The notes beneath the pieces were generated by a model. It ran no database searches and was not told where the DNA came from. It saw only the letters and a list, made by a program, of their open reading frames with translations. Of a stretch of 31,114 nt of DNA, positions 11,277 through 19,201 are shown in pieces. A program made the position numbers and the translations under genes. Origin of the DNA: Sphingobium sp. (lineage in GTDB: Bacteria > Pseudomonadota > Alphaproteobacteria > Sphingomonadales > Sphingomonadaceae); NCBI GenBank assembly GCA_017745115.1, contig JAGIAA010000034.1:1-31114 (forward strand), given 5' to 3'. The stretch's first letter is position 1, and each line of letters starts with the position of its first letter.

Positions 11277-11903
11277 TCACGCCTTGTCGCGAGAAGACAT
11301 CAGGTCGACGACCTTATCCATGTCTTCGAGAATTTCCTCATGGGAGACGAAGGTGGGCGCGCTGCCCTCCTTTCGCCCTTCCGTCCCTTCGAGGATCGCC
11401 TCGAGATGGCGCCGGCCGCGCGAGACGCGGCTCTTCATGGTGCCCACCGCGCACTGGACGATATTGGCCGCTTCTTCGTAGCTGAGGCCGCCGGCGCCGA
11501 CGAGCAGCAGCGCCTCGCGCCGCTCGAGCGGAAGCCGCATCATTGCGGACTTGAGATCGCCCATGTGGATGCCGCCTTCCTGGTCGCCCGGCCGGCTGAG
11601 CAGGCGCTCCGCCGCATCGGGATCATATTCGCCATGGAAGCGGTTTCGCCGAACTTCGCTTAAATAGACGTTCCTCAGAATGACGAACGTCCAGTTCTTC
11701 ATGCTGGTGCCCGGCTGGAACTTCTCACGCGCCGTCCAGGCACGGAGCAATGCTTCCTGCACCAGGTCGTCCGCGAAATCGGCTCGCCCGCAGAGGCCAC
11801 GCGCAAAGGCGCGCAGGTGCGGCGTGACGCGTGTCAGCTCAGCCCGAAAATCGAAATCCGGATGGGGGTCCGCCTCGCGCGGCTTGACGCTATTTTGAAT
11901 CAC
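11277..11903 (-). CDS. ecfG: EcfG-type sigma factor of the general stress response
   Basis: An extracytoplasmic-function sigma factor of 208 residues if started at GTG 11903, a choice that overlaps nepR by 14 nt as is usual. The ATG at 11972 would overlap nepR by 83 nt and is unlikely. Sigma region 2 (about 26-90) carries HLRAFARGLCGRADFADDLV and MKNWTFVILRNVYLSEVRRN. Region 4 (about 118-170) carries LPLERREALLLVGAGGLSYE and CAVGTMKSRVSRGRRHL. These match EcfG, which directs RNA polymerase to GGAAC-N16/17-CGTT promoters and is held inactive by NepR. Eight perfect sites of this kind lie in the window, including one before nepR, so the operon is autoregulated. A C-terminal extension of about 38 residues is specific to this copy. 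The precise start is uncertain. Confidence 0.93.
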   Translation of the reverse strand: MIQNSVKPREADPHPDFDFRAELTRVTPHLRAFARGLCGRADFADDLVQEALLRAWTAREKFQPGTSMKNWTFVILRNVYLSEVRRNRFHGEYDPDAAERLLSRPGDQEGGIHMGDLKSAMMRLPLERREALLLVGAGGLSYEEAANIVQCAVGTMKSRVSRGRRHLEAILEGTEGRKEGSAPTFVSHEEILEDMDKVVDLMSSRDKA

Positions 11904-12063
11904 CGGCCTGATCCAGCTTCCTGAGAAGGCTCTCGATCTCGTCGGGAACGTCTTCTCCAACCACGGAGTCATACATGCGCTTCAGGCTCTCGGCCCATAC
12001 CGGCTTATGCTCGGTGGCCGACGCGCGCCGCGATGCCTTCCTCAAATCGGGCTTGCTGGACAT
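11890..12063 (-). CDS. nepR: NepR anti-sigma factor
   Basis: A 57-residue protein from the ATG at 12063, which has an AAGGGG upstream at long spacing (11 nt). An ATG at 12090 would add nine residues but lacks a ribosome site. The core SLKRMYDSVVGEDVPDEIES followed by LLRKLDQ is the two-helix NepR signature with the family spacing (LxxxYxxVxxExVPDxxxxLLxxL). NepR binds EcfG in unstressed cells and is taken over by phosphorylated PhyR. It precedes ecfG with a short overlap, so the two are coupled, and it is transcribed from an EcfG-type promoter about 150 nt upstream. Confidence 0.93.
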   Translation of the reverse strand: MSSKPDLRKASRRASATEHKPVWAESLKRMYDSVVGEDVPDEIESLLRKLDQAGDSK

Positions 12064-12214
12064 GGGAGTATTTGCCCCTTGCGCACGCATGTTGTCGAGA
12101 ACAGAATCATCGATCACTTTCGCTTCGTCCCTGTTCGACCTGCTGGAGAAAGCAGCCCCCGCGCGGCATGATGTGATAAGACCATCGATGTTTTTCCAAG
12201 ATTCCACCAACGCG

Positions 12215-12239
12215 GGAACGATTGGGATGCACGGAAGTT
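12215..12239 (+). promoter_or_regulatory. Overlapping divergent EcfG-like promoter of the CHASE-HWE kinase
   Basis: Plus-strand GGAAC (12215-12219), 16-nt spacer, AGTT (12236-12239). It is almost the mirror image of the nepR promoter: each -10 element sits inside the -35 element of the other strand. One base differs from consensus. Confidence 0.5.
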
Positions 12240-12241
12240 CC
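12217..12241 (-). promoter_or_regulatory. EcfG promoter (perfect) of nepR-ecfG
   Basis: Minus-strand GGAAC (12241-12237), 16-nt spacer, CGTT (12220-12217). It makes the operon autoregulated. The leader to nepR is about 147 nt, unusually long, with no gene in it that I can recognise. Confidence 0.85.
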
Positions 12242-12351
12242 CGTGTCGATACTGGAGACGCAAAATAGACGGTCAGGGGATTCTGCTTTTCAACCGCCGC
12301 GCCAAAGATCGCTTCGACAGGTGGCTGAGAGATTATCCTCGAGCTACGCCT

Positions 12352-13944
12352 GTGGCGGTATTTTGCGTGGCGCTTGTGCTCGTCTTCATGGCGGCCTGGT
12401 CGGTCGAGCTGGCCGAGCGCCGGATTTGGGTCGCCCAGCAGCAGGCCAAGGTCGATGAGATGGCTTCCACCTTGCAGCGGCAAGCGGCGACGGACTCTGC
12501 CTATCTGGCAGCGATGGGCTCCCTCCTCGGCAATGTCGGCAGTCCCTCGCCGCAGATTTTTCGGAGCTACGTCGGCCAGCTGCGTGGCATCTCGGATCTG
12601 AATGGTGTCGTCGGCCTCGGCTGGATCGAACGTTTCGGTCCGGAAGATCTTGCCGACCTCAAGCGGCGTTTCGCATTGCCGTCGGGCAATGCGGGGAAAG
12701 CGGAGGCGCCCGCATTCTCAACACCGGAAAAATGGCCGGTCTATCTCACCGGCATGTTGACGGACGGACCGGGAGGCAGCCTGTGGTCGACTCGACTCGA
12801 CGACGGTCGTGAGGATCCCTGGGTCGGCGCGATGGACCGGGTTCTGAAGAGCGGCACCATCGCCACGGCCGACTGGACCGAGGACGCGCAGGCGGGAAAT
12901 GCTCACCAGCCGCCCGCCTTCGTCGTAATGGCTCCTGCGCCAAGTCCGCGCGGGGGAGCGGGCTTTGAGGGCGTCGCCTTCGGCCTCGTCCATGCCAACG
13001 ATTTCGTGGCGGCGGCGGTCGATCCTGCCATCATGAAAAGCGGGCAGGTCGAGATTCTCCGGCAGGCGCCCGGCGGCGCGAGACGGATCTTCCAATCGGG
13101 CACCGCCGGCCGGCGGCTTGCGGCACCGCTCGCCAAGGATATCGACGTCTTCGAACAACGCTGGACACTACGCTATTGGCCACCCGCCCGTGCCGGGCTC
13201 TCCATGCTGAGCCTGGTCATCCTGATGGGCGGCGCGGCATTCGCTTTGCTGCTCCTCGCATATGTGCTTCTCGTCCAGCGCCGAACCAGCGATCTGCATG
13301 CATTGCTCGATGCGCAGATGCTGCAGGAGCGGGAGCGCACGGCATTCGTCCGGGAATTGAACCACCGGGTGAAGAACACATTGGCCAATGTCACCTCGAT
13401 CATATCCCTGACGCGCCATCGCACGACCGATGTCCAGTCGTTCGCCGACATGCTTCTGCAGCGGGTGCGGGCGCTCGCCGCCGGACATTCGCTGCTCGAA
13501 GGCGGGCAGTGGGGGCCCGCCGATCTGCGCGCCATTTTCGCCACCCAGCTGTCGGCGCATGACAAGGCCGGTGGCCAGGGTGACCGCATCGCACTTGAAG
13601 GTCCCGACGTGGCGGTCGTGCCGCAGGACGCGCTGACGATCGGACTTGCCGCTCATGAGCTGACGACCAATGCAGTGCGCTTTGGCGCTCTGTCCACCGA
13701 TGAAGGGCGGATCGCGATCCGCTGGCAGGTCGTCGAGGGCAATTGGGTGCAGGTCGACTGGGTCGAAAGCGGTGGGCCGGTCGTGGCTCCCCCGGAAAAG
13801 CTGGGCTTCGGGCTGACGCTGGTGCAGCGCGCGCTGGCGCATGAACTGCACCGGCCGATCGAACTCAATTTCGATCCGGCCGGTTTCCGGTGCCGCTTCT
13901 TCTTTCAGCTCCGCGAGCAGCGATCCTTCCAGCTGCGCCGCTGA
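12352..13944 (+). CDS. CHASE-domain HWE sensor histidine kinase of the GSR locus
   Basis: A 530-residue membrane kinase as counted from GTG 12352. TM1 (about 2-18), a periplasmic CHASE domain (about 50-260), TM2 (about 283-307), then an HWE core with H338 in RELNHRVKNTLANV, N box AAHELTTNAVRFG, the W-x-E signature in VDWVESGGPVV, and GFGLTLVQRAL. Kinases of this build beside phyR-nepR-ecfG act as phosphodonors or phosphatases of PhyR (PhyK, PhyP, Pak proteins); which one applies is inferred. The start is doubtful: the frame stays open upstream and encodes FDRWLRDYPRATPVAVF, which looks like the usual cytoplasmic N-terminus, but no ATG exists there. A CTG at 12283 (or ATT at 12280) follows an AGGGG. 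It converges on phyR, with a shared terminator between them. Confidence 0.88.
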   Translation: MAVFCVALVLVFMAAWSVELAERRIWVAQQQAKVDEMASTLQRQAATDSAYLAAMGSLLGNVGSPSPQIFRSYVGQLRGISDLNGVVGLGWIERFGPEDLADLKRRFALPSGNAGKAEAPAFSTPEKWPVYLTGMLTDGPGGSLWSTRLDDGREDPWVGAMDRVLKSGTIATADWTEDAQAGNAHQPPAFVVMAPAPSPRGGAGFEGVAFGLVHANDFVAAAVDPAIMKSGQVEILRQAPGGARRIFQSGTAGRRLAAPLAKDIDVFEQRWTLRYWPPARAGLSMLSLVILMGGAAFALLLLAYVLLVQRRTSDLHALLDAQMLQERERTAFVRELNHRVKNTLANVTSIISLTRHRTTDVQSFADMLLQRVRALAAGHSLLEGGQWGPADLRAIFATQLSAHDKAGGQGDRIALEGPDVAVVPQDALTIGLAAHELTTNAVRFGALSTDEGRIAIRWQVVEGNWVQVDWVESGGPVVAPPEKLGFGLTLVQRALAHELHRPIELNFDPAGFRCRFFFQLREQRSFQLRR

Positions 13945-14022: not shown

Positions 14023-14817
14023 TCAGACAAGATAGGCCGTCGAGCCGAAAAACATCACCTGGCCGACCGTCGCGCGGACGTAGTCGTCGCTGAACGGCTT
14101 GGTGATGAGATAGGTCGGCTCGGGGCGCTCGCCCGTCAGAAGGCGCTCGGGGAAGGCCGTAATGAAGATCACCGGCACGTCGGCGCCGGCCATGATCTCA
14201 TTCACCGCGTCAATTCCGGAGCTGCCGTCGGCAAGCTGGATGTCGGCCAGGACGATGCTGGGCTGACGCTCCTTGAACAGCGCCACCGCTTCCTCATGGG
14301 TCGTGGCAATACCGACGACACGGTTGCCCATGCCGGTGATGATTTCCTCGAGCTGGTAGGCGATGAGCGGCTCATCCTCGATGATCAGCACATCGGTCCG
14401 GCCGCCTGCTTCGACGGCGCCGGCGGCTTCCTCGATCATTCCGGAAACATCGTCTTCGTCGATGTCGAGAATCTCGGCGATCTCGGAAACGGAGAAGCCT
14501 TCGACGGCTTCGAGGAGCAACGCCTGGCGGGCGAGAGGCTTGGCCTCGCCCAGCCGGTTGTTCACGGTCTCCTGTTCAGCGCTTCGCCAGTCGCCATCGG
14601 CAGGAAGGGCCTTGCCGACGGAATTCCAGATCCGCGTGAACGCAGCATACAGGCCGGCGCGTGACTTCGAAAGATCGGCTCGCAGACTGGCGTCGGCGAG
14701 GGCTGCTTCAAGAAGCTCGCGCACCAGGCCGTCGCCGAGCTGTTGTGAGCCCGCGAGGATGCGCGCGTAGCGACGCAGATAAGGGATTTCACGGGCGACG
14801 AGATCGGACATGGGCAT
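14023..14817 (-). CDS. phyR: PhyR anti-anti-sigma response regulator
   Basis: A 264-residue protein from the ATG at 14817, which has AAGGGAG upstream; an ATG at 14811 is possible. The frame runs on to 14964 but that part crosses the promoter region. The N-terminal sigma-like domain (about 1-135) has the helices IPYLRRYARILAGSQQLGDG and SVSEIAEILDIDEDDVSGMI. The receiver (about 141-260) has E147-D148, phosphoacceptor D192 in VLADIQLADG, T220 and K240 in LITKPFSD. On phosphorylation the sigma-like domain is freed and binds NepR, releasing EcfG. This is the standard alphaproteobacterial switch; all key residues are present. A sigma-70-like promoter lies upstream and no GGAAC site on this strand, so basal expression may be constitutive. 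Confidence 0.96.
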   Translation of the reverse strand: MPMSDLVAREIPYLRRYARILAGSQQLGDGLVRELLEAALADASLRADLSKSRAGLYAAFTRIWNSVGKALPADGDWRSAEQETVNNRLGEAKPLARQALLLEAVEGFSVSEIAEILDIDEDDVSGMIEEAAGAVEAGGRTDVLIIEDEPLIAYQLEEIITGMGNRVVGIATTHEEAVALFKERQPSIVLADIQLADGSSGIDAVNEIMAGADVPVIFITAFPERLLTGERPEPTYLITKPFSDDYVRATVGQVMFFGSTAYLV

Positions 14818-14918: not shown

Positions 14919-14942
14919 AGAAATTTATTTTTTGCGTGTCCG

Positions 14943-14967
14943 GGAACTTCTGTCGACGCCGCACGTT
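14943..14967 (+). promoter_or_regulatory. EcfG promoter (perfect) of the small RNA
   Basis: Plus-strand GGAAC (14943-14947), 16-nt spacer, CGTT (14964-14967). It faces away from phyR. The next coding start on this strand (15183) has its own perfect promoter at 15110, so this one most likely serves a separate short transcript. Confidence 0.8.
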
Positions 14968-14973
14968 TCAGCA

Positions 14974-15060
14974 TCGTCGGTGTACCCACCCCCCAGAGGG
15001 CACCGGCGCCGTTAAGGTCGGCTCCCGTACACCCCCCAACCCGCAATGCGGGAGCCGACC
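14974..15060 (+). ncRNA. Putative GsrN-like EcfG-dependent small RNA with two C-rich loops
   Basis: No reading frame fits this stretch, yet it follows a perfect EcfG promoter by about 7 nt and ends in a strong hairpin. The 5' hairpin pairs 14976-14982 (GTCGGTG) with 15001-15007 (CACCGGC); its 18-nt loop holds CCCACCCCCCAGAG. The 3' hairpin has a perfect 12-bp stem, GGTCGGCTCCCG (15016-15027) with CGGGAGCCGACC (15049-15060), and a 21-nt loop with ACACCCCCCAACCC. The loop motif GTAC..ACCCCCCA thus occurs twice. GsrN of Caulobacter is an EcfG(SigT)-dependent sRNA with a C-rich 5' loop and a 3' terminator-like hairpin, so the layout and location agree. No U-tract follows the hairpin, so the 3' end is uncertain. 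Both the RNA and its function are inferred. Confidence 0.6.
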
Positions 15061-15109
15061 ATATCTCCGTCATCGTCACTTTCGGTCATTCGGCGGCCTC
15101 GCCGAATGG

Positions 15110-15182: not shown

Positions 15183-15755
15183 ATGATCGGTAGCACTATC
15201 GCAAAGTCGAATCCGCAGCTGGTTGAGGATCTCCAGCGCATGCCCGAAAAGGGGCTGCGCCTTGTTTCCGAGAACCTCCCGAAATTCGCCAATGCCGCGC
15301 GCGAGACCGGACGGTCGGTGAAAGCGTCGGTGAGCGATCTGGCGAGCACCGCCAGCGACAATCTTCAGCAAGTCCTGCCCAGCCGGGATTCAATCCGGAC
15401 CGCGGGCGCTGCCGTTGCATCGGCAGCGGCGCTCCAGGCAGCGGAGCGTGGCATTGTTCGTTTCGCAACGCGGCGGCCGCTTCTGGTGCTGCTGGGCGGT
15501 CTCGCGATTGTCGGCGGTATCGCGCTCGCGCGTCGCCAGCGGAAGCGTGCCGGCGCGGAAACCTCGGGCGACGAGGTCGGCGAAGGCAGCTATGAAGGGG
15601 CGCGCGACTATCGCGAGCGCACGGCGCAGTTCCTGAAGTCGGAAGGCAAGCAAGTGGCCGCACGTGCCCGGCAGGCCAAAAAGGCCATCGAAGGCGATGA
15701 GCGGGCGGAGCTGGAAGCGGCCGAGGCGGAAGGCCGCAGCCGCGCGCGCAGCTAA
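15183..15755 (+). CDS. Membrane-anchored stress protein of unknown function heading the NHEJ operon
   Basis: A 190-residue protein; ATG 15183 with a GAGAGG site. A helical, amphipathic N-terminal half with many A, S and N residues is followed by one membrane span (about 99-115, PLLVLLGGLAIVGGIALARR) and a basic stop-transfer. The C-terminal tail contains GSYEGARDYRERTAQFLKSE, then EGDERAELEAAEAEGRSRAR. This DYxxxTxxF...AEAEG pattern recurs in small alphaproteobacterial stress proteins, but I know no function for it. The gene is 10 nt upstream of ku and shares its EcfG promoter. A link between an inner-membrane protein and end joining is not obvious; co-expression under stress is the safe reading. 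Confidence 0.82.
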   Translation: MIGSTIAKSNPQLVEDLQRMPEKGLRLVSENLPKFANAARETGRSVKASVSDLASTASDNLQQVLPSRDSIRTAGAAVASAAALQAAERGIVRFATRRPLLVLLGGLAIVGGIALARRQRKRAGAETSGDEVGEGSYEGARDYRERTAQFLKSEGKQVAARARQAKKAIEGDERAELEAAEAEGRSRARS

Positions 15756-15765
15756 AGGAGGCTGA

Positions 15766-16674
15766 ATGGCCGCGCGGGCATATTGGCAGGGGCAGATTCG
15801 TCTGGCGCTCGTCTCGATCCCGGTCGAGGTCTACCCCGCCACCCGCTCCGGCACCTCGATCAGCTTTCACCAGATTCACGAGCCGAGCGGCAAGCGTATC
15901 CGGTACGAAAAAGTCGCGCCGGGCATCGGCCCGGTCGACCGTGACGAGATCGTGAAGGGTTACGAGCTGTCGAAGGGCAATTATGTCCTGCTCGACGAGG
16001 AAGAGATCGAGGCGGTCAAGATCGAGAGCCGCAAGACGCTCGACCTCGTCCAGTTCGTCGAGGCGAGCGAGATCGACGTTCTCTATTATGAGAAGCCCTA
16101 TTTCGTGGTGCCTGCCGACGACCTCGCCGAGGAAGCCTATGTGGTGCTGCGCGATGCGCTCCGGCAGACCAGGAAGGTGGGACTCGGCCAGCTTTCGGTG
16201 CGCGGGCGCGAGCAGTTGGTCTCGCTGAAGCCGTGCGGTCGTGGCTTAATCATGGAGGTCCTGCGCTACGCCGACGAGGTACAAAAGGCTCAGGGCTATT
16301 TTCGCGGCATCGGTGAAAAGGACCCCGATCCCGAACTGCTCGATCTTGCGGCGACCCTCATCGACAAGAAGACGGCGCCCTTCGAACCCGGCGAATATCA
16401 TGACCGCTATGTCGACGCGCTCCACAAGCTCATCGACAAGAAAGCCAAGGCGAAGGGCAAACGCATCCTGGAGGATGTCGAGGAGCCCACGCGGCCGAGC
16501 GGCGCCAATGTCATCGATCTCATGGCTGCCCTCAAGAAGTCGGTGACCACGGGCGGCGGAACTGCGACGACGGCCCGGAAGCCGGCGGCGGGCAGCAAGA
16601 CCAAGGCAGAGGGCAAGACCAAGGCTCCGGCAAAGCCAGCGAAAGCACCGGCCAAGCGCCGCAAGAGCGCCTGA
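15766..16674 (+). CDS. ku: Ku DNA end-binding protein
   Basis: A 302-residue bacterial Ku. ATG 15766 has an excellent AAAGGAGG site. The start AARAYWQGQIRLALVSIPVE and the following SFHQIHEPSGKRIRYEKVAP are the canonical N-terminus; the ring-forming core spans about 5-255, with GYELSKGNYVLLDEEEIEAV. The tail (about 256-302) is rich in Lys, Ala and Pro, as in Ku forms whose C-terminus binds DNA and aids end bridging. Ku forms a homodimeric ring on double-strand ends and recruits LigD. The ligD start follows after 1 nt, so the two are coupled. The operon has an EcfG promoter at 15110-15134. Confidence 0.97.
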   Translation: MAARAYWQGQIRLALVSIPVEVYPATRSGTSISFHQIHEPSGKRIRYEKVAPGIGPVDRDEIVKGYELSKGNYVLLDEEEIEAVKIESRKTLDLVQFVEASEIDVLYYEKPYFVVPADDLAEEAYVVLRDALRQTRKVGLGQLSVRGREQLVSLKPCGRGLIMEVLRYADEVQKAQGYFRGIGEKDPDPELLDLAATLIDKKTAPFEPGEYHDRYVDALHKLIDKKAKAKGKRILEDVEEPTRPSGANVIDLMAALKKSVTTGGGTATTARKPAAGSKTKAEGKTKAPAKPAKAPAKRRKSA

Positions 16675-16675
16675 G

Positions 16676-19201
16676 ATGGCGCGAAAGGGTGCTCTCGCCA
16701 CCTACAACGAGAAGCGCGATTTCGCGCGGACGCCTGAGCCCGCCGGGAAGGCCGAGAGCAGTCCGAGCGGCAATCTCTTCATCGTGCAGAAGCATGAGGC
16801 GACGCGGTTGCATTGGGACTTCCGGCTCGAACTGGACGGCGTGCTCAAAAGCTGGGCGGTGACGAAAGGACCGAGTCCCGATCCCGATGACAAGCGCCTG
16901 GCCGTGCGCACGGAGGATCATCCGCTGTCCTATGCCCAGTTCGAGGGGACCATTCCCAAGGGCGAATATGGCGGCGGCACGGTGATGCTGTGGGACAAGG
17001 GGACCTGGGCACCGATCGAGGGCAAGAGCGCGAAGGACCTTGAAAAGGGCCATCTCCATTTCCGGCTCGATGGCGAGCGGATGAAGGGCGAGTGGCTGCT
17101 CATCCGTCTGCGGCCTCGTCCCGGCGAGGGCAAGCGTGAGAACTGGCTGCTGCGCAAGATCGACGACGCCCACGCCGGCGTCGGTGATACGCTTGTCGAA
17201 ACGGCGCTGACCAGCGTTCTCACGGGTAGGACCATGGCCGAGATCGCGTCCGACAAGCGCGGCACGCAATCGCTTTCCGGAAAGAAGGGCGCTGATTTCG
17301 TCGCCGTCATGGAAAAAGCCGCGCGGCATAATGCCCGTGCCGCCAAGCCCACGTCCCGGACCAAAGCTAAGACGGCTGCTCCACCGCGCTTCGAGACACC
17401 GCAGCTGGCGACCCTGGTCGACCATGTGCCGGCGGGGAACGGCTGGATGCACGAGATCAAGTTCGACGGCTATCGCGCGCTCGCTGCGGTCTCGGGCAAG
17501 GACGTCGCCATCTACACGCGCTCCGGGCTCGACTGGACCGATAAATTCAACCCACTTATCAAAGAGTTGAGAGGTCTGGATCTCCCCTCCTGTCTCATCG
17601 ACGGTGAGATCGTCGCCTACGGCAAGGACGGCAACCCGGACTTTTCCGCCCTCCAAGGGGTATTAAAACGGGGTCATGGCTCCCAGAAGCCATTGGATTT
17701 GCTGGCCTTTCATGCCTTCGACTTGTTGAGGCTCAATGGCGAAGATCTGAAACCCCTCCCCAACATCGAACGCAAGGAACGCCTCGAAGCCCTTCTCGCT
17801 AATGCTGCGCCCCCCATCCACGTCGCCGACCACGTCATCGGCGCCGGCGAGAAGCTGTTCGCGGCGATGTGCAGCGCCGGACAGGAGGGCATCATCTCGA
17901 AGCGCATCGATGCGCCCTATCGCGGCGAACGGACGCGCAACTGGGTGAAGGTCAAGTGCACGCTGCGCCAGGAATTCGTGATCCTCGGCTGGAGCAAGAG
18001 CAACACCAAGATCCGGCCATTCCGCTCGCTGCTGCTCGGCCAGCGCGAGAGCGGAAAGATGGTGTACAAGGGCAAGGTGGGCACCGGCTTCGACACGGAC
18101 ACGCTCGGCATGATGGCCCGCAAGATGGCGCCGCTCGCCCGGGACAAGCCCCCGGCGGAGGTGCCGCGTACCGAGGCGCGGGGGGCGCAATGGCTCGAGC
18201 CGCAGCTGGTCGCGGAAATCGCCTTTGCCGAGTTCACGGCCGATGGTCATGTTCGCCATGGCAGTTTCATTGGCCTGCGCGAGGACAAGGAGGCGACGTC
18301 CGTGACACCGGAAAAGGCAGAGGCGGCGCCCCAGTCACAGGATGATGCAATCGCGATCACCCATCCGGATCGCGTCATCTTCGAGGGCGGGCATACCAAG
18401 GGCGAGCTGGCGGACTATTACCGCGCGGTCGGAGGGCTCATGCTGCCTTTCGCTGCAAACCGCCCCGTCAGCCTCGTCCGCTGCCCGCAAGGACGAGCGA
18501 AGCGGTGCTTCTTCCAGAAGCATGATAGCGGCACATTCGGTGGTCACGTGCATCATGTGCCGATTGTCGAAAAGGACGGCGGGGCGGAGGACTATCTCTA
18601 CATCTCGGATACGGACGGCATCCTCTCCTGCGTGCAAATGGGCACGATCGAGTTCCATGGCTGGGGAGCCAAAGTCGAGGATGTGGAGCGGCCGGACCGC
18701 ATGATATTCGACCTGGATCCGGATGAGGGCCTCGATTTCGACGACGTCAAACAGGGCGCGCGCGATATCCGAAAGCGGCTTGCCGATCTTGGTCTCGTGA
18801 CCTTCGCAATGCTGTCGGGCGGCAAGGGCATCCATGTCGTCGCGCCGCTGACGCCCGGTCATGACTGGGAGACGCACAAGGACTTTTCCAAGCGTTTCGC
18901 CGAGGCGCTGAGCATCGCGGAGCCGGATCGCTACGTGGCGAACATGAGCAAGGCCAAGCGCAAAGGCCGCATCTTCATCGACTATTTGCGCAACCAGCGC
19001 GGCAGCACAGCGGTGCTGCCCTATTCGGCGCGCGCGCGAGCCGGTGCGCCGGTGGCCGTTCCCATTGCATGGGATGAGCTTGACGACATGCAGAATGCCC
19101 ATCCGTGGTCGATTGCCGATGCCGAGATGTTGCTTGCCCGCTCGCGTGACAAAGGTCTGCGCGGCTGGGGCTTTGCCGCGCAAGCCTTGCCGACGGCCTG
19201 A
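16676..19201 (+). CDS. ligD: ATP-dependent DNA ligase D (phosphoesterase-ligase-polymerase)
   Basis: An 841-residue three-domain end-joining enzyme. The order is 3'-phosphoesterase (about 30-190; FIVQKHEATRLHWDFRLELD, with TIPKGEYGGG), ATP ligase (about 235-535; adenylated lysine K262 in EIKFDGYRAL and the OB-fold to about 535), then primase-like polymerase (about 555-835; metal ligands D679 and D681 in FDLDPDEG, and SGGKGIHV at 714-721). This is the full LigD set, enough with Ku to trim, fill and seal blunt or damaged ends. The ATG at 16676 is 1 nt after the ku stop, with a weak ribosome site, so translation is coupled to ku. The SDR gene follows but has its own promoter. Confidence 0.97.
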   Translation: MARKGALATYNEKRDFARTPEPAGKAESSPSGNLFIVQKHEATRLHWDFRLELDGVLKSWAVTKGPSPDPDDKRLAVRTEDHPLSYAQFEGTIPKGEYGGGTVMLWDKGTWAPIEGKSAKDLEKGHLHFRLDGERMKGEWLLIRLRPRPGEGKRENWLLRKIDDAHAGVGDTLVETALTSVLTGRTMAEIASDKRGTQSLSGKKGADFVAVMEKAARHNARAAKPTSRTKAKTAAPPRFETPQLATLVDHVPAGNGWMHEIKFDGYRALAAVSGKDVAIYTRSGLDWTDKFNPLIKELRGLDLPSCLIDGEIVAYGKDGNPDFSALQGVLKRGHGSQKPLDLLAFHAFDLLRLNGEDLKPLPNIERKERLEALLANAAPPIHVADHVIGAGEKLFAAMCSAGQEGIISKRIDAPYRGERTRNWVKVKCTLRQEFVILGWSKSNTKIRPFRSLLLGQRESGKMVYKGKVGTGFDTDTLGMMARKMAPLARDKPPAEVPRTEARGAQWLEPQLVAEIAFAEFTADGHVRHGSFIGLREDKEATSVTPEKAEAAPQSQDDAIAITHPDRVIFEGGHTKGELADYYRAVGGLMLPFAANRPVSLVRCPQGRAKRCFFQKHDSGTFGGHVHHVPIVEKDGGAEDYLYISDTDGILSCVQMGTIEFHGWGAKVEDVERPDRMIFDLDPDEGLDFDDVKQGARDIRKRLADLGLVTFAMLSGGKGIHVVAPLTPGHDWETHKDFSKRFAEALSIAEPDRYVANMSKAKRKGRIFIDYLRNQRGSTAVLPYSARARAGAPVAVPIAWDELDDMQNAHPWSIADAEMLLARSRDKGLRGWGFAAQALPTA

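Follow-up and report, generated by a model that had tools for sequence, protein, structure and literature searches.

The window, by which we mean the whole 31,114-nt stretch of DNA analysed, contains a general stress response (GSR) locus in which Pfam identifies a sigma factor, NepR, an HWE kinase and PhyR together. The sigma factor gene (11277-11972, minus strand; Sigma70_r2 and Sigma70_r4_2) adjoins nepR and was taken as ecfG. The open reading frame (ORF) at 11890-12483 on the same strand encodes the anti-sigma factor NepR in its 3' part (Pfam NepR, residues 161-193), and its real start probably lies further in. The sensor kinase of the locus (HWE_HK) is encoded at 12352-13944 on the plus strand, and phyR, with PhyR_sigma2, PhyR_sigma-like and Response_reg domains, lies at 14023-14817 on the minus strand. 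Divergent from phyR, on the plus strand, are an EcfG-type promoter (P1), an inferred small RNA of ~88 nt (14973-15060), a second EcfG-type promoter (P2) and a gene for a small protein (15183-15755) with no Pfam match and, by eye, one hydrophobic stretch. Directly downstream of the GSR locus, positions 15766-19201 encode Ku and LigD, which belong to non-homologous end joining.

Promoter and fold of the putative small RNA

A motif scan of the window found P1 as GGAAC-N16-CGTT at 14943-14967 on the plus strand, exactly where it had been predicted; the 31 kb contain ten matches to GGAAC-N15-17-CGTT, compared with 0.55 expected from shuffles. Immediately before P1, at ~14923-14934, lies a AAATTTATTTTT tract that may be an element of the UP type or belong to the phyR promoter, and a similar tract occupies the same place in several of the relatives described below. 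The 5' end of the small RNA was assumed to lie a few nucleotides past the -10 element, so that position 14973 is inferred, as is the 3' end at 15060.

The region 14965-15070 folds with an energy of -45.8 kcal/mol (z = -5.3; 0 of 200 shuffles were as good) and forms two hairpins. In the fold of lowest energy, the first copy of ACCCCCCA (14988-14995) coincides exactly with the apical loop of hairpin 1 (14975-15008); in the centroid fold this loop opens wider. Hairpin 2 (15016-15060) consists of 12 Watson-Crick pairs, one G-U pair and one A-U pair, in agreement with the perfect 12-bp hairpin of the original prediction, and its 17-nt loop holds the second ACCCCCCA copy, so that both loops expose CCCCCC. 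The prediction had placed this motif in both loops and located the first copy correctly, but the second lies at 15031-15038 and not at 15029-15036. Two ACCCCCCA copies anywhere in the 31 kb arose in 9 of 100 shuffles and are hence not rare; two copies at most 60 nt apart on the same strand arose in none of 1,000 dinucleotide shuffles of the window. No Rfam family reached its cut-off in a search of the whole window.

Conservation of the element in relatives

We searched an order-wide sample of 296 genomes, reached via genome G146; the order was taken for Sphingomonadales because the PhyR of a Sphingomonas parapaucimobilis plasmid is 80-89% identical to the PhyR of 4 of 54 genomes drawn from it. 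PhyR matched in 196 of the 296 genomes at E <= 1e-60, with an identity to the window PhyR of 69-70% in three genomes and of at most 57% in the other matches listed. In all three of these genomes the same site has two successive C-loop hairpins, with an EcfG box on either side and the next ORF after the second box. A covariance model, R1, built from six sequences including the window, gave matches of 72-99 bits in 9 of the 94 genomes of one genus (five supplied training sequences and four were independent of training) and scored the window RNA, itself a training sequence, at 73.5 bits. We refer to the form shared by the window and these nine relatives as type A.

Across the 296 genomes of the order, where Infernal's stricter filters, used for all large covariance searches, cause weak matches to be lost, R1 gave three strong matches, all among the same nine genomes, and five further genomes at 30-38 bits. 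These five (L107-L111) were rejected as other C-loop hairpins, and none was preceded within 150 nt by an EcfG-like box of matching orientation; they lie at ~1500-1600 of their loci, with sequences such as GGCCGGUCCUGACA..CCCCCCCUCCCCC..GUCAGGGCCGGCC, and L108-L111 look like one further small RNA family. BLASTn with the 127-nt region was likewise discarded: 263 of 396 genomes of the order matched at E <= 1, the six matches inspected were unrelated sequence, and none of 30 loci taken from the matches contained PhyR.

In all ten members (the window plus nine relatives), 119-171 nt separate the type A core from phyR, and the two are divergent. A GGAAC box stands 31-35 nt upstream of the core in every member (33-35 nt in the nine relatives) and is followed in the relatives by CGTT (five) or CATT (four). 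The original prediction had proposed that compensatory stem changes be sought across relatives, and these were found: in the ten-sequence alignment, which was fitted to the model and therefore leans towards the structure, 97.5% of 200 cells are paired and 12 of 20 pairs have two-sided changes (6 of the 7 modelled pairs of hairpin 1 and 6 of the 13 of hairpin 2). Cells with two-sided changes numbered 18, compared with 4.8 in shuffles (0 of 500 as high), and structures slid along the same alignment were only 16-44% paired; 'further pair types' showed no excess over shuffles among the ten sequences (161 of 500 as high). A model-free MAFFT alignment of six sequences gave two-sided changes in 10 of 20 pairs, using a structure written by hand after the folds had been seen.

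While the stems of the nine relatives vary by compensation, their loops hold an invariant CUGCCCCCGA in hairpin 1 and CUCCUCACCCCCC in hairpin 2; the window loops share only the C-runs with them, the remaining loop sequence being different. These runs comprise 5-6 C in loop 1 (five in each of the nine relatives) and 6-7 C in loop 2 in all ten members, and the second C-rich loop, anticipated as a new feature, is fixed in this form (10 of 10). The near-identical loci L105 and L106 have six and seven C, respectively, in the second run, a possible slippage site. Because nine more genomes keep both hairpins and the C-runs, we consider the observation settled: the type A stretch is a real, conserved RNA element.

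Two other readings of the stretch bear on these data. A short coding gene might overlap it, given that a 127-aa plus-strand ORF spans the region in the window and that three of the ten type A members have no stop in any plus-strand frame; however, the stops of the other seven fall in differing frames, loop lengths change by a single base and the stems change on both sides. Single-C length changes together with stops in varying frames leave little sign of coding, and we give this reading almost no credence. The inverted repeats might also act as DNA, binding a protein between the divergent promoters or blocking transcription from one side, as the divergent intergenic location and the strong stems would allow; yet in all ten members the C-rich loops belong to the strand that P1 would transcribe, and such loops would be superfluous in a DNA site. 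We consider a DNA-level element very unlikely.

The original prediction had described the 3' hairpin as terminator-like, which did not hold: a U-tract after hairpin 2 is absent, the longest T-run in the next 20 nt being 1-3 in all ten type A members, and hairpin 2 is therefore not a canonical intrinsic terminator. The type A 3' end would thus arise by Rho, processing or read-through; C outnumbers G in the 30 nt after hairpin 2 in 10 of 10 members, which would suit Rho. The missing U-tract was one of two features that went beyond the prediction, the other being the second EcfG box, P2 (15110-15134, plus strand), which is assigned to the downstream gene. A corresponding box lies 32-61 nt past hairpin 2 in 9 of 9 relatives; counting the window, all ten members have an EcfG box that separates the RNA from the next gene, which argues for the RNA as a separate transcript.

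The lack of a U-tract in all ten members would also fit a cis-acting leader, in which transcripts from P1 continue into the gene at 15183 and the hairpins form a structured 5' untranslated region that controls or stabilises that mRNA. Several relatives do have a related small protein downstream: tblastn (E < 0.01, composition correction off) matched the protein at 15183-15755 in three of nine, the ORFs picked for L112 and L113 being in the wrong frame, and a likeness by eye extends to most of the relatives beyond these three. Nevertheless, the gene has its own EcfG box after the RNA in 10 of 10 members, the loops are the best conserved part in the nine relatives, and a second form of the RNA in the same place (type B, described below) has an intrinsic terminator at its end in most cases (72 of 79); a leader is therefore rather unlikely, and a separate small RNA is the more probable reading.

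A sister form and its PhyR lineage

In 126 phyR loci, 20 of them class-wide and the rest found by searching the order and the genus, we looked upstream of the gene for a C-loop hairpin preceded by an EcfG-like box. Nine loci were positive, four of them type A; a looser box/hairpin scan gave 24 positives, not all alike, and revealed a common second form, type B. A covariance model built from ten type B sequences, R2, matched 107 of the 296 genomes of the order at E <= 0.01, 92 of them at no less than 68.5 bits, with the next match at 42 bits. By coordinates, the RNA is divergent from phyR in all 92 strong genomes; for 13 of these, both nearness and divergence were judged on coordinates alone. 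Among the non-type-A phyR loci from the order search, 79 of 86 had type B, a share that is not random because these loci come mostly from the top of the PhyR ranking; 92 of 296, obtained under strict filters, is the fairer figure. In a class sample of 190 genomes, reached via a named Tabrizicola metagenome-assembled genome, R2 gave five matches at E <= 0.01, of which one was strong (G146, a member of the order). An Rfam search of 12 type B loci returned no relevant match.

In all 79 loci, type B lies upstream of and divergent from phyR, at a distance of 147-1573 nt, with a GGAAC/T box before the RNA, whose predicted length is ~95 nt. The spacer of this box is 16 nt in 72 loci, leading to CATT (67) or CGTT (5), and 17 nt to GGTT in one; six fit no such pattern. 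The C-run of loop 1 comprises at least six C in 78 of 79, and a T-run of at least five near the 3' end in 72 of 79 indicates an intrinsic terminator. Across the 79 sequences, pairing reaches 98.8% and 11 of 21 pairs have two-sided changes (0 of 500 shuffles as high), nine of the 11 being in the terminator stem; hairpin 1 shows little variation, so that the case for its pairing comes mainly from folding. Between hairpin and terminator runs a linker, ACGAUCCCG, that is conserved almost as strictly as the C-loop (79 loci; L119, L168, L066 and others) and may be a second pairing site.

R2 scores the window RNA at only 18.4 bits, and type A and type B sequences do not align. A PhyR tree with 71 rows groups all eight type A rows in a single clade (100/100); its sister clade (98/84) comprises the 27 type B rows and L004, and the two together are supported at 100/95. 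L004 carried a 'class' label in the tree, and its genome, G146, has the type B RNA. The window row is on a long branch, and its exact place within the type A clade is unsure. Since the place, direction, box and C-loop are common to these sister lineages, common descent of the two forms is likely.

Many genomes of the order show neither form, and type A is limited to 9 of the 94 genomes of one genus plus the window. The PhyR of sixteen other members of that genus falls outside the type A clade, and their genomes gave no R1 match and, in the scan, no boxed C-loop hairpin beside phyR. The Sphingomonas parapaucimobilis PhyR is 77-81% identical to thirteen of these sixteen (those listed) and 49% identical to the window PhyR, and its phyR locus gave no strong R2 match (best 16.8 bits). 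The PhyR of S. melonis may belong to this other lineage. As the RNA-less genomes have other PhyR proteins, the RNA goes with one PhyR lineage and not with the whole order. The type A genus (L088-L103) thus holds two distant PhyR lineages, with the RNA beside only the window-like one; in L097-L102, a C-run, CAACCCCC, recurs on the strand opposite to phyR, ~90-117 nt ahead of the gene, and is not part of any clear hairpin loop.

Proposed action and comparison with known systems

The promoter box, the covarying hairpins, the kept C-runs and the constant place beside phyR suggest that 14973-15060 probably encodes an EcfG-activated small RNA that serves the general stress response and binds G-rich stretches of mRNAs through its C-loops; from these sequence features we infer its transcription, its EcfG dependence and its pairing with mRNAs. 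PhyR would release EcfG, and RNA polymerase with EcfG would start at P1 to yield an RNA of two stable hairpins. In both loops the C-runs would then serve as seeds for pairing with target mRNAs at G-rich (Shine-Dalgarno-like) segments, and this pairing would alter the translation or stability of these mRNAs.

By analogy with GsrN and 6C RNA, the window RNA most likely acts on mRNAs through its C-rich loops. In the GsrN study, pairing via the C-rich 5' loop was predicted for 32 of 67 enriched RNAs, and G-rich sequences occurred in 31 targets (PMC5869019); a further paper cites mycobacterial 6C RNA as an mRNA binder through C-rich loops (PMC9569102). Two C-loops per RNA would also suit titration of a G-rich RNA or an RNA-binding protein with no direct action on mRNAs, and alphaproteobacterial small RNA sponges do exist, CrfA and SisA-D being named in PMC12559287; type B, however, has a single C-loop and no partner for titration is known, and we consider a sponge or protein-binding RNA improbable.

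Returning to direct pairing, we compared the loops with the leader of katG, a GsrN target, in 27 of 30 katG matches (L240-L242 left out); with 150-nt leaders, assigned starts of which some are doubtful and mononucleotide shuffles, this is a weak test. The leaders of seven of eight type A genomes were within shuffles, and that of one (G640, loop 1 only) was at or below the 5% level of shuffles, as were 2 of 19 with type B loops (G312, G416). With no consistent complementarity, katG was rejected as a conserved target shared with GsrN. The katG leaders L235 and L236, from two type B genomes, hold GGACGGGAG, nine bases complementary to CUCCCGUCC of the type B loop.

Types A and B belong to a wider set of putative stress-linked small RNAs, apparently not yet described, that by the same analogy probably tunes other genes by pairing with their messages. 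To our knowledge, GsrN is the only small RNA with a central role in the alphaproteobacterial general stress response; a phyR-linked, EcfG-boxed C-loop RNA across much of the order would widen post-transcriptional control in this response, and the type B RNA is the larger result of our analysis. Open-licence literature yielded no sphingomonad phyR-linked small RNA of this kind. At the level of term look-ups, PMC6599016 and PMC7083833 describe no small RNA, one of them citing SuhB in its references, and a Zymomonas small RNA paper contains neither phyR nor EcfG. The two-loop form indicates that such an RNA can change its seed number and 3' end and yet keep its place and promoter. We tentatively suggest, as a scenario somewhat short of even probability, that one large sphingomonad phyR lineage has its own core stress small RNA that Rfam does not list (type A, together with type B in 92 of 296 genomes), and that in the window's clade a second C-rich seed arose from the terminator hairpin; the RNA would then grip two G-rich sites, and its 3' end would lack an intrinsic terminator. 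The two covariance models and the coordinates are provided for testing.

Erythrobacter litoralis is a member of the Sphingomonadales. It was the out-group of the GsrN study, which names it as lacking an apparent gsrN-like gene and reports BLASTn matches to gsrN only in Caulobacteraceae (PMC5869019). GsrN is a sigma-T-dependent small RNA of Caulobacter (PMC5869019), and likeness to it was judged on its description (promoter, place, loop and terminator). Like the window RNA, it has an EcfG/sigma-T promoter directly upstream; it is near GSR genes in most Caulobacteraceae examined, as the window RNA and those of 9 of 9 relatives are divergent from phyR, and its ~100 nt include a 5' hairpin that exposes six cytosines predicted to pair with G-rich targets (PMC5869019). 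The six tandem cytosines are present in the window, whereas the nine relatives have five. GsrN is also marked by cleavage to a stable 5' isoform and by an effect of Hfq. Unlike GsrN, with its 3' intrinsic terminator, the window's form has no such terminator in any of ten members, carries a second C-loop inside the 3' hairpin and does not evidently target the katG leader. The link to GsrN that had been predicted from architecture thus stands for promoter, phyR linkage and exposed 5' C-loop but not for terminator, katG pairing or an Rfam match. The window RNA resembles GsrN in its promoter, its place and its 5' loop, a likeness of design and not a demonstrated homology; as it also lacks a defining feature, the terminator, we did not file it as GsrN.

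6C RNA (RF01066, Actinobacteria) is defined by a pair of hairpins whose loops each contain about six cytosines, an arrangement that the window RNA shares. It was the best Rfam match of the region by bits (26.1, the cut-off being 47); the E-value of ncS035 was slightly lower, but this family too stayed far below its own cut-off. We know of no report of an EcfG promoter or a phyR link for 6C RNA, and its hosts are actinobacterial, whereas PhyR, NepR and an EcfG-type sigma factor give the window host an alphaproteobacterial system; the likeness is likely convergence.

The Cuckoo RNAs (CcsR1-4), whose loop motif is CCUCCUCCC, and alpha-r8 (SisA-D, MmgR) resemble the window RNA in having C-rich anti-Shine-Dalgarno-like segments and are partly stress-linked. 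CcsR has an RpoH promoter and a DUF1127 neighbour (PMC10253847), and alpha-r8 a single-stranded UUUCCUCCCU and a terminator (PMC12559287). Neither CCUCCUCCC nor the 10-mer UUUCCUCCCU occurs in any of the ten type A RNAs, which have an EcfG box and not an RpoH promoter; none of the seven window proteins scanned with Pfam contained DUF1127, and alpha-r8/suhB (RF00519) was absent from the Rfam matches to the window stretch up to E = 10.

The closest kin of the window RNA is the type B RNA. The two differ in that type B has a single C-loop followed by an intrinsic terminator; they agree in their place and direction beside phyR, in the EcfG box, in the C-rich loop on hairpin 1 and in the sister PhyR lineages of their hosts.
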